A program made the position numbers and the translations under genes. 29,804 bases of DNA from a virus: positions 1 to 29,804 of the IMG/VR virus record IMGVR_UViG_3300032304_000151. One strand, given 5' to 3'. This document shows positions 7,533-25,219 of this stretch, piece by piece. How positions within the stretch are numbered: position 1 is the first letter of the stretch; every line of letters starts with the position of its first letter. Under the pieces are notes generated by a model. It had not been told where the DNA came from. It worked only from the letters and a program-made list of their open reading frames with translations, and did not search any database.

Positions 7533-7780
7533 ATGGCATTTGCCAATAGCTCGATCAGCGACATCATTGCGACTAACATTCAAAGCCGCACGGGTGAACT
7601 TGCTGACAACGTAACAAATAACAACGCTTTACTGCGCCGTTTGAAAGAACGTGGCAACGTAAAGACGTTTTCTGGCGGTAACGTGATTTTGCAAGAGATC
7701 ATGTACAACGACGCTGCAACCGACAACACCAATAGCTATTCAGGCTATGAAGTTTTGAACGTTTCGCAAAACAGTCCCAT
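7533..7780 (+). CDS. Major capsid protein, exon 1 (residues 1-82 plus two bases of codon 83)
   Basis: Starts at ATG 7533 after a CGGAG site. The frame codes for MAFANSSISDIIATNIQSR and continues through NSYSGYEVLNVSQNSP, then reaches a stop at 7800-7802 inside the intron, so the unspliced product is only 89 residues. Joining 7780 to 8041 makes codon 83 ATT (Ile) and continues into exon 2 as SPI-SAAQFSITQYAAA, which reads as one capsid family. The complete spliced gene is 1002 nt (333 residues). Capsid identity rests on the scaffold upstream, length, and the C-terminal part (DRNFVPIGG...QDAIVKLIG). A truncated pseudogene is the alternative, but the intact intron core argues against it. Confidence 0.9.
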
Positions 7781-8040
7781 TGACGAATTAGTGGCTTTGT
7801 AGAGAAATCTGCATCGAAAAACTTTGTGAATTCGGTGAAACTCTGACCATTAAGTTGAAGACAATACCGAGCCAAGCCCAGAGATGGGAAGGTGTAACGA
7901 CTAGGGTGTGACTACCCGTAGAGCCAAGTGGCTCGAAGTGCAAAGAACCCTACGGGGTTGTGAGATAGTCTGCTCTGCATAGAAATATGCAGCAGTCCGA
8001 AAGGGCGGCAAGGGATTAACGAAACCTTGTGAACATTTGG
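7781..8040 (+). ncRNA. Group I self-splicing intron in the major capsid gene
   Basis: 260 nt with no ORF. P1: exon CCAU (7777-7780) pairs with the guide GUGG (7791-7794), with the splice-site U7780-G7791 wobble, extended by UGA/UUA around a CGAA loop. P10: exon 2 UAGU with 7787-7790. P2: 7799-7803/7808-7812, loop GAAA. P4: 7831-7836/7866-7871. P5: 7841-7847/7854-7860 with one C-A mismatch. P6: CCCA/UGGG with GAGA loop (7877-7888). P7: 7899-7903/7966-7970. P8 within 7915-7958, carrying a nested GAGCC/GGCUC hairpin. P9-type hairpins: 7975-7992 (GAAA), 7995-8006 (GAAA) and 8009-8029. Terminal G is 8040. P3 is weakly defined (ACUU 7821-7824 with GGGU 7904-7907). Core strings GAGCCAAGCC and GGUGUAACGACUA match bacterial group I introns as I know them. 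Confidence 0.93.
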
Positions 8041-8794
8041 TAGTGCGGCACAGTTCAGTATCACCCAGTACGCTGCGGCAATTTCGATCAGCGGTCTGGA
8101 GATGATTCAGAACAGCGGTAAAGAAGCAATCATTGACTTGCTAGATGGTCGTATGAGCGTGGCTGAAGCACAATTGGCTAACCGTATTTCGGGTGACATT
8201 TACCTAGACGGTACTGGTAACTCAGGCAAGAACATCACAGGCCTCGGCGCTGCTGTTCCTGACGCACCAAGCACCGGCACTTACGGCGGCATCAATCGTG
8301 CATCGTTCTCGTTTTGGCGTTCGGCTAAGTTCTCAGGCGTGACTGATGGCGGTTCGGCGACTTCAGCATCAAACATCCAATCGTACATGGATGCTCTTGC
8401 TGTTCAACTGATTCGTGGAACAGACAAACCTGATCTGATCGTTTGCGACAACAACTATTACAAGCTGTATTTGCAATCGTTGCAGTCAATTCAACGTATC
8501 TCCGACGGCGGTAATTCGGCAGTTGGCGCAGGCTTTGCATCGTTGAAATACTACGGCGCTGGTATGGCATCAGACGTAATCTTGGACGGTGGTATCGGTA
8601 ACGATGCAACTGCCAATCATATGTGGTTCTTGAACACCAAGTACATGATGTTCCGTCCACACGCTGATCGTAATTTCGTGCCAATCGGCGGCGAACGTCA
8701 AGCTGTTAACCAAGACGCTATCGTCAAGCTCATCGGTTTTGCCGGCAACCTCACATCTTCAGGCCCGCAATTCTGCGGCGTTCTGATCGCCTAA
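8041..8794 (+). CDS. Major capsid protein, exon 2 (end of codon 83 to residue 333)
   Basis: In the correct frame the exon reads T|AGT GCG GCA CAG, giving SAAQFSITQY, then SGLEMIQNSGKEAIIDLLDGR and on to a C-terminus with HADRNFVPIGGERQAVNQDAIVKLIG and GPQFCGVLIA. An upstream in-frame TGA at 8030-8032 shows that this half cannot be read continuously from upstream without splicing. The first ATG inside it (8102) lacks a good ribosome site and would drop a conserved-looking stretch, so it is not taken as a start. Helical NSGKEAIIDLL and the beta-rich remainder fit an HK97-type coat protein, though the fold is inferred. Confidence 0.9.
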
Positions 8795-23951: not shown

Positions 23952-24160
23952 TTGTGTGTCTTGTCCAATGCGTAGAGGGCTGTATACAAGTGCGGATGCG
24001 TTGTGTCGTTGAGTAGTACACCTTTATCCCCAATGTATCCTGTAGGCTTTAATTTAGCTAGATTGTCAGCAGCCTGGCGAAACGCACAAGGGTTGTATTC
24101 AGCGTTGCAGCGACCACCGCAAGCCTCTTTAAACAGATGAATATAGTCGGCCTTGTTCAT
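23948..24160 (-). CDS. Hypothetical small protein of leftward operon
   Basis: 70 residues. Contains CGGRCNAEYNPC with three cysteines in the first 25 residues, then a helical AADNLAKLKPTGYIGDKG and a C-terminal LYTALYALDKTHK. The cysteines could bind metal, but the spacing does not match a known ribbon. 4-nt overlap with the next gene and with the HTH gene upstream. Function unknown. Confidence 0.55.
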   Translation of the reverse strand: MNKADYIHLFKEACGGRCNAEYNPCAFRQAADNLAKLKPTGYIGDKGVLLNDTTHPHLYTALYALDKTHK

Positions 24161-24429
24161 GGTCGTAATCCAAACGGGTTGTGGGCGTGTTTAACAACGA
24201 GGTTTTCGTAATTATCTGAAGATTCTGTAGCAGTCGGTGCTTGTCGAATAGTGACATACACACAAGGTGAGCCACGCCTACCATCTCCACGTTTCTCGAT
24301 CTTGTTATTGCGCTGAAGTTTGGCTAGTTGAGTGTAGATGCTGATCTTTTCAAGGCCACAGTAATCGGCAATATCAGCTGTAGTTTTAGGTTCAATGCAA
24401 TACCGCAATATCTTTTGTTCTGTTGACAT
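24157..24429 (-). CDS. Winged-helix DNA-binding protein
   Basis: 90 residues. Residues 1-55 look like a winged helix-turn-helix: KILRYCIEPKTTADIADYCGLEKISIYTQLAKLQRNNKIEKR, in pieces, with the recognition helix around ISIYTQLAKLQ and a wing RGDGRRGSPCVYV. First gene of the leftward operon. It begins after ATGGAGAACAT (site GGAG), only about 14 nt behind the probable transcription start, so the leader is short. As the promoter carries the shared 13-bp motif, this protein may be a regulator in the early network, perhaps acting on the operon itself; that is inference. Confidence 0.7.
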   Translation of the reverse strand: MSTEQKILRYCIEPKTTADIADYCGLEKISIYTQLAKLQRNNKIEKRGDGRRGSPCVYVTIRQAPTATESSDNYENLVVKHAHNPFGLRP

Positions 24430-24449
24430 ATGTTCTCCATAAAAACATC

Positions 24450-24478
24450 ACATTAAGCCATCTAAACACAATGCACAA
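24450..24478 (-). promoter_or_regulatory. Leftward operon promoter with operator copy
   Basis: On the minus strand: -35 TTGTGC (24478-24473), a 17-bp spacer, -10 TAATGT (24455-24450). The spacer and -10 contain TTAGATGGCTTAA (24465-24453), one of four copies of the shared 13-bp motif. Its layout, TTG then 7 bp then TGTTTAG, is identical to the promoters at 25254 and 27303. Transcription would start about 24443 and reach the GGAG/ATG of the winged-helix gene directly. The match to consensus is moderate, and activity is inferred. Confidence 0.6.
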
Positions 24479-24580
24479 GAGGTATTTATCTTAGTGATTA
24501 CCCGTACTTTTATTATTTGGACAATAGTATTCCCAAGGGTGGATAGCGTGTAGTTTCCCTACGCAGTCCAACTCGATCCA

Positions 24581-24603
24581 TATTGTTTTATAACAGAACA
24601 ATA
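24581..24603 (-). promoter_or_regulatory. Palindrome over an extended -10-like sequence
   Basis: On the minus strand TGTTATAAA (24595-24587) fits an extended -10 (TG-n-TATAAT) with no clear -35. It is framed by a perfect 7-bp inverted repeat, TATTGTT at 24581-24587 and AACAATA at 24597-24603, with a 9-bp centre, so it may be a second, repressible start for the leftward operon. A small hairpin (24546-24564) lies downstream. Weak evidence because AT-rich sequence yields such matches by chance. Confidence 0.3.
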
Positions 24604-24783
24604 CCAATCCTACCGGAGTTAATGTTCATTCGATCTAGGGTCTTGTCCCACCGTGTCCCCTAGTCTTGTGTAGTCCCCATTTAAGGCTACGTGGCTTGCT
24701 GTCGGGTGTAGACCAGCCAATCTTTCTTGAGTACCGGCGATTTAACCGTATTAGATAACGCTCTCTGACGGTTATCAAAAGAC

Positions 24784-24876
24784 AAATAAAAAAGCCGTTT
24801 AAATCTGTATCCTGGTGGAAGAATTCACTATCGTTTTCAAGGCGCAAATGAATCAGGCTACAGACTAAAACGGCTT
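24784..24876 (-). terminator. Large intrinsic terminator of the candidate small RNA
   Basis: Arms 24876-24854 and 24814-24792 pair over 23 positions in minus-strand RNA: 20 Watson-Crick, one G-U, with mismatches U-U and G-A. The outer nine pairs (AAGCCGUUU/AAACGGCUU) are perfect. The loop is 39 nt. The stem is followed by UUUUUUAUUU, as expected for Rho-independent termination. In plus-strand RNA the G-U becomes a mismatch and no U-run follows, which supports the minus strand as the transcribed one. Confidence 0.65.
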
Positions 24877-24895
24877 CGTTATCTTCCACGACAAC
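24785..24895 (-). ncRNA. Candidate phage small RNA (about 110 nt)
   Basis: A sigma70-like promoter (24931-24902) predicts a start near 24895, and an intrinsic terminator with U-run ends near 24785. Between them there is no plausible gene. The RNA would contain 5' GUGGAAGA (24889-24882) with a perfect partner UCUUCCAC (24822-24815), and the 23-nt terminator arms. The two pairings interleave (A-B-A'-B'), so the RNA may form a pseudoknot or switch between two shapes. No known RNA family is recognised. Function could be antisense control; nothing in the window identifies a target. Confidence 0.5.
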
Positions 24896-24901
24896 AATTA
24901 A

Positions 24902-24931
24902 ATTATGCCATCGTCTGTTCCGATGTGTCAA
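24902..24931 (-). promoter_or_regulatory. Sigma70-type promoter of the candidate small RNA
   Basis: Minus strand: -35 TTGACA, a perfect consensus (24931-24926), 18-bp spacer, -10 CATAAT (24907-24902), five of six consensus. It is the best promoter match seen in the window and it lacks the 13-bp operator motif found at the other early promoters, so it may be constitutive. Confidence 0.65.
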
Positions 24932-25003
24932 GCCCTAAAGCTAGGCTGATGGAAACACGACCCTTACCAGTAGAGTTTCCTGCTTGCTAAAGGCTTAATC
25001 AGT

Positions 25004-25219
25004 CTAATGCAACTCAGGCCATATTTGTTGCCAGTTGGGGATTTCTTTTCTTGACCATTTGCCATCTGATTTTTTTTCAAGCTCGGCAGCCAGCAACACT
25101 AATTTATCGCTAGGCAAACCATTGTTGCGCCATTGACTTACGGCGGGTGGACTGACACGACATAGCTTGGCTACAGCAAACGTGCCACCTAATGTTTGGA
25201 TGATTTCTGTTGTATTCAT
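25004..25219 (-). CDS. Cro/YdaS-like helix-turn-helix repressor
   Basis: 71 residues. TEIIQTLGGTFAVAKLCRVSPPAVSQW (about 4-30) is a helix-turn-helix with the typical VSPPAVSQWRNNGLP recognition segment of YdaS/Cro-like phage regulators, followed by LVLLAAELEKKSDGKW and a C-terminal PNWQQIWPELH that recurs in this family. It is divergent from the recombination operon, the arrangement of a lambdoid switch. One copy of the 13-bp motif (25221-25233) starts two bases beyond its start codon and others lie in early promoters, so it is the prime candidate to bind that motif. No CI-like partner with a protease domain is visible here. Confidence 0.8.
   Translation of the reverse strand: MNTTEIIQTLGGTFAVAKLCRVSPPAVSQWRNNGLPSDKLVLLAAELEKKSDGKWSRKEIPNWQQIWPELH

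Follow-up and report, generated by a model that had tools for sequence, protein, structure and literature searches.

The minus strand of the window (the whole stretch of DNA analysed, a 29.8 kb IMG/VR virus record of 29,804 nt) carries a promoter–terminator unit at positions 24931–24786, and this unit is confirmed to be real. It is probably best explained as a small-RNA gene equipped with a promoter and a terminator of its own, one allele of a large phage RNA family. Comparison of relatives shows an arrangement in which the predicted RNA begins at a 5′ hairpin (D) with loop A, which is complementary to a strand (A′) abutting the terminator helix (B). A, A′, B and the inner region C diverge and are swapped between related phages, while the matching of A to A′ is kept.

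The promoter (24931–24902, minus strand) consists of a −35 box TTGACA (24926–24931) that agrees with the consensus at all six positions and is kept in window-like phages, an 18 nt spacer and a −10 box CATAAT (24902–24907) preceded by TG, at a fixed distance from hairpin D. It matches the consensus at 11 of 12 positions and is the top site across the 9.8 kb scanned. The predicted transcription start, judged from the −10-to-D spacing and from the exchange boundary between loci L139 and L140 described below, is the G at 24895, the first base of hairpin D (24878–24895, GUUGU/AUAAC, 5 bp). Covariation identifies the 7 nt loop A (GUGGAAG, 24883–24889) as the partner of A′ (CUUCCAC, 24815–24821). Downstream of D lie the 5′ arm of helix B (B5, 24854–24875), region C with one or two small hairpins (24822–24853, from alignment A2) and A′, which abuts the 3′ arm B3 (24793–24814, assigned through covariation) with a spacer of zero. 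Of the 22 pairs of helix B 20 are standard in the window copy, and the helix is followed by TTTTTTATTTG; the U-run UUUUUAU (24786–24792), read from the sequence as the 3′ end of the RNA, is kept in the aligned homologues. The terminator loop exceeds 8 nt, which is the only reason why a simple terminator scan missed it.

A sequence-only reading had already pointed to this promoter and strong terminator, to a product of about 110 nt and to a location between a regulator gene and the leftward operon. All of these hold: the distance from +1 (24895) to the U-run corresponds to about 106–110 nt, and the unit is flanked by a YdaS/Cro-like gene (25004–25219, minus) and a winged-helix-like ORF (24157–24429, minus). 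The predicted folding energy of the RNA is −41 kcal mol−1, compared with −20.7 ± 3.1 kcal mol−1 for shuffled sequences, none of which (0/200) is equally stable. The minus strand, which had been preferred in that reading as well, is favoured because its fold has a z-score of −6.6 and that of the plus strand only −4.1. The earlier account did not mention the 5′ hairpin, the 7 bp pairing of loop and strand, the existence of a large family or its cassette-like variation.

Its claim that the unit contains no credible ORF stands. A 98-codon ORF with a TTG start does cross the RNA (24635–24931), but a coding reading was rejected: the frame is not conserved, and the check that the sequence-only reading had named as its refutation, a coding type of substitution among homologues, spoke for an RNA instead. 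The ORF is not taken to be a gene because homologue lengths fall into each of the three classes modulo 3 (23/17/17) and because the RNA pairing fixes the bases. The non-coding stretch 24508–24740, which separates the RNA terminator from the leftward ORF, is conserved independently, with 77–80% identity over 24601–24725 in L120, L139 and L146. A short inverted repeat (GATAAC...GTTATC) lies near 24753–24778.

Relatives were gathered through scans for the neighbouring ERF protein and with degenerate terminator-arm patterns, which gave several hundred loci on viral contigs. An initial viral pattern (AAACGGCTTNNTTATTT) proved insufficiently specific, retrieving chance terminators for the most part. 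The relatives share a common plan, with hairpin D, loop A, a helix B of about 22 bp followed by a U-run, region C and A′; between +1 and the last base of helix B the RNA spans 84–134 nt, and the length of region C varies widely. A scan that demands this plan strictly scores 183 hits across the 3.5 Mb of DNA retrieved, compared with zero in reversed-sequence controls; these hits include repeated contigs and do not provide a frequency, because the fetched DNA was pattern-selected. They reduce to 92 distinct sequences, of which at least one is apparently a chance match. The window RNA is one of about 90 variants of an apparently undescribed RNA family. Each phage record carries one copy, except G007, where two copies at opposite ends of the contig are consistent with, and likely reflect, a terminal repeat.

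The family is found almost only in viruses of freshwater bacteria. A blastn search with the intergenic region recovers two named phages, both from Manatee Spring; weak hits to Vibrio phages have an E value of 0.1 and cover 23% of the query. A third subfamily has no match among named phages or plasmids, and the pattern of one subfamily finds in about 85,000 cellular genomes a single chance match, apparently in coding sequence and devoid of the fold. The strict scans list no copy in the cultured Methylophilales phage MEP301, which has a related ERF gene. The covariance models of Rfam 15 give no hit at positions 24430–25003 of the window, either at the gathering score or even at E ≤ 10, and within the RNAs of the divergent L121, L139 and L175 only sub-threshold chance hits such as microRNA-type hairpins. 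In the open-licence literature no description of a phage RNA with the A:A′ terminator-hairpin design was found.

The structure was tested on alignment A2, which contains 57 distinct RNAs with 5 bp in D, 7 bp in A:A′ and 22 bp in B. Pairing is observed in 96.6% of 1,933 cells, versus 83.0 ± 0.5% when the partners are shuffled, and falls to 34.6–45.7% when the partners are slid by 1–3 columns. The covariation score is 0.458 versus 0.205. Compensatory changes, which the sequence-only reading had proposed to look for in related phages, are abundant: 25 of the 34 pairs change on both sides, in 243 cells. Hairpin D is 97.7–99.1% paired (n = 57) and shows double-sided changes, as do 16 of the 22 pairs of helix B, which is 95.4% paired. 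The cleanest helix is A:A′, which is 99.2% paired with six of its seven pairs changed on both sides, at most four pair types per position and not a single G–U.

Because the structure was partly derived from these same 57 sequences, a separate subfamily was used as well. It was retrieved with a pattern consisting only of its B 5′ arm, and two or three of its members had been seen previously. All 36 distinct intact RNAs retain seven out of seven Watson–Crick pairs in A:A′, directly abutting B3, and they do so with nine different A sequences. At the sequence level, loop A is shown to be matched to A′ at the top of helix B and to stay matched while the sequences diverge. About midway along helix B a weak spot recurs (class I, alignment A2 columns 48–49/145–146), consisting of a G–U beside a U–U or C–C, or of two adjacent mismatches in the third subfamily. 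This may perhaps serve to avoid RNase III.

The −10 box of nearly all 57 members stands 6 nt ahead of the base with which D opens. Upstream regions that are dissimilar (less than 60% mutual identity) have a −10 hexamer, defined as TATAAT in at least four of six places, ending exactly 6 nt before D in 24 of 30 cases (other distances, 0–8). Some homologues have TTGACA at −35; others, outside the window-like phages, have in its place only a strong or TG-extended −10 box. Two homologous RNAs start a few bases after a tRNA; in L139 (2446–2678, minus) the RNA promoter directly follows a tRNA gene (72 bits), in sequence shared with L140. The fixed spacing in dissimilar surroundings is good evidence that transcription begins independently at the first base of D and that the RNA is more than a leader or terminator of the upstream gene.

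This bears on an alternative in which the element is a cis-acting attenuator of the leftward operon, where early A:A′ pairing delays formation of terminator B and allows partial read-through into the downstream genes. Such a role would suit the location of the RNA in window-like phages, just downstream of the YdaS/Cro-like gene and on the same strand, as well as the geometric conflict between A:A′ and a full helix B. We nevertheless consider it improbable, given a promoter of its own with a fixed +1 in most contexts, downstream genes that are unrelated in other phages and no obvious sensor domain. A free-standing small-RNA gene, as had been put forward for the window, is supported by the fixed −10 spacing, the terminator, the non-coding lengths, the compensatory changes and the unrelated contexts, all of them features of the sequences.

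In relatives of the window phage the RNA follows directly after the YdaS/Cro-like gene, which matches a PHROG transcriptional repressor family, and lies opposite ERF and SSB. In other phages it adjoins structural, methylase-like or other genes (gene names read by eye). No obligate protein partner is common to all 12 RNA-bearing genomes compared, a comparison that also took in one further genome with a second RNA class. The most widespread protein cluster among the carriers is ERF, which was itself used to find many of them. As the RNA occurs in such unrelated gene contexts, it is very probably expressed and acts in trans.

We also considered a local role as an antisense or immunity RNA, like P4 cI, P1 c4 or OOP, in which the RNA would pair with a neighbouring phage transcript, since the regulator-adjacent position and the diversified complementary segments resemble immunity RNAs. 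In most of the 57 loci neither 1.5 kb flank contains a same-strand complement of at least 10 nt; the few that are found share no position, and the window RNA has none. A local target is thereby largely refuted, and we regard this explanation as very improbable.

The closest complete phage has no annotated integrase, so that a virulent lifestyle is likely. Elsewhere in the window (7769–7992, plus) an Rfam RF00028 group I intron (67 bits) is situated between ORFs 7533–7802 and 8102–8794. The latter ORF corresponds to the C-terminal two thirds of a major head protein family, and the capsid gene is thus apparently interrupted by the intron. In phage ctn9Y15 (MW202674) the coat gene is also annotated in two pieces.

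The RNA itself is hypervariable. L139 and L140 are 99.7% identical over the 1,500 nt upstream and this identity stops exactly at +1; their RNAs are 43% identical (gaps counted as differences), and both A and A′ differ. Among pairs with well matched upstream flanks (mean identity of at least 88% over at least 300 nt), A differs in 27 of 32, although these pairs are not independent. This pattern fits a cassette with exchange points at +1 and downstream of the terminator. Strict structural conservation combined with swapping of alleles usually marks diversifying selection at a locus, while swapping of the RNA cassette may also reflect general phage recombination.

A second RNA class was read by eye in L121, L132, L138, L141, L150, L180 and L215 (for example L121:3880–4000 and L215:686–800, both minus). 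Here a 5′ hairpin loop UUGGNN is matched to NNCCAA inside the loop of a long terminator hairpin, and an extra hairpin is present between A′ and B3. In L121 and L132 this class occupies the genomic position of class I. In L215:60–800 (minus) an HNH-like homing endonuclease ORF separates a class II RNA from a class I RNA; this arrangement suggests that the endonuclease assists the spread of the RNA cassette. In a possible third class (L193:829–990; L173:1233–1400, minus) a segment of about 10 nt (GTTGGAACAAC or TGAACAATGG) that precedes the terminator stem has its complement inside a 27 bp terminator hairpin.

The covariation fits pairing of A:A′ in cis and in trans alike. The geometry was considered using a crude estimate that treats the helices as rigid A-form and stacks D on A:A′. 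The linker between D and B then has to be at least 7 nt long with B complete, at least 4 nt with 2 bp open and at least 2 nt with 3 bp open. It measures 2–4 nt in 47 of 57 members and at least 7 nt in nine. Because most linkers are too short, either B frays, A:A′ alternates with a full B, or the pairing is intermolecular.

If A pairs with A′ of the same molecule, the result is a pseudoknot, a compact and nuclease-resistant trans-acting RNA that would bind a host protein or sequester its own seed loop until activation. The strict complementarity within each molecule speaks for it, and the fold can be reached when roughly 3 bp at the top of B open, and also in members whose linkers measure 7–10 nt. 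With B intact, the linkers of most members fall short (2–4 nt versus at least 7), and the conservation and covariation of the uppermost pairs of B indicate that they are used. We judge this form possible but somewhat doubtful. The A:A′ helix may instead be formed between molecules, giving a loop–strand kissing dimer or chain, a tentative model that follows from the helix lengths and the short D–B linkers, which limit intramolecular reach unless B frays. Such a model is reasonable because in GOLLD and ROOL loop–junction pairs seen by covariation proved to be intermolecular by cryo-EM (PMC12286853).

The like-with-like matching together with the cassette swapping suggests that the RNA could be a specificity element in a conflict, whether the opponent is a co-infecting phage or a host factor, a role that we advance with reserve. 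More speculatively, and on balance unlikely, the RNA would recognize copies of its own allele (A with A′ of another molecule), assemble into dimers or chains and serve as an identity tag, either in the competition of co-infecting phages or to escape a host system able to read the RNA, and this would account for the exchange of alleles. Were it to decide on phage coexistence in a cell, it would constitute an RNA specificity system in virulent phages. The variation could track host range if the RNA were an Hfq-type sRNA that hits host mRNAs via loop A or A′, with alleles fitting different hosts. A terminator with a U-run and an exposed 7 nt loop agree with this, and phage sRNAs such as VpdS and PreS exist (PMC12197685). 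Each candidate seed is, however, matched by its own A′, for which an mRNA target would create no need, and we regard an Hfq-type role as rather less than probable. A′ as an anti-Shine–Dalgarno sequence was rejected: this fits some alleles only (GUGGAAG, GUGAAGG) and fails for UUGGUCG and UUGGCCG.

Compared with known systems, the window RNA resembles λ OOP, P22 sar/sas and BTP1 STnc6030 in being a small RNA from a phage regulatory region; these are antisense to a phage gene (PMC12197685), whereas the window RNA is intergenic, on the operon strand and without a local complementary target. With VpdS and PreS it shares a small size, phage origin and a probable action in trans, and its U-run terminator is compatible with Hfq; a universal loop-to-strand match or cassette-like hypervariation is not described for them in the sections considered of that review (PMC12197685). 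Type III antitoxins such as ToxI are tandem repeats beside a ToxN-like nuclease, unlike this single-copy RNA with no universal protein. Pistol and HDV-like ribozymes have a similar pseudoknot topology, but the window copy has no Rfam match to them at E ≤ 10. The φ29-type pRNA is a phage RNA of about 120 nt in which matched loops covary and pair between molecules, and is known from φ29-like phages only; the A:A′ family differs in its fold, has no Rfam match and occurs in P22-like and other phages. GOLLD and ROOL are likewise phage-associated structured RNAs with conserved pairing of a loop with a joining strand (PMC12286853). GOLLD often exceeds 800 nt and has a different sequence and structure, compared with 84–134 nt and no Rfam match here, and GOLLD and ROOL oligomerize, while for the loop–strand pairing of the A:A′ family an intermolecular nature is suggested only by geometry. 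Few phage-encoded RNAs are known, and this family, common in viral contigs from freshwater, has an unusually simple and clear design. If A:A′ is intermolecular, it would provide a self-assembling RNA of about 100 nt, much more tractable than the giant cages of GOLLD and ROOL.
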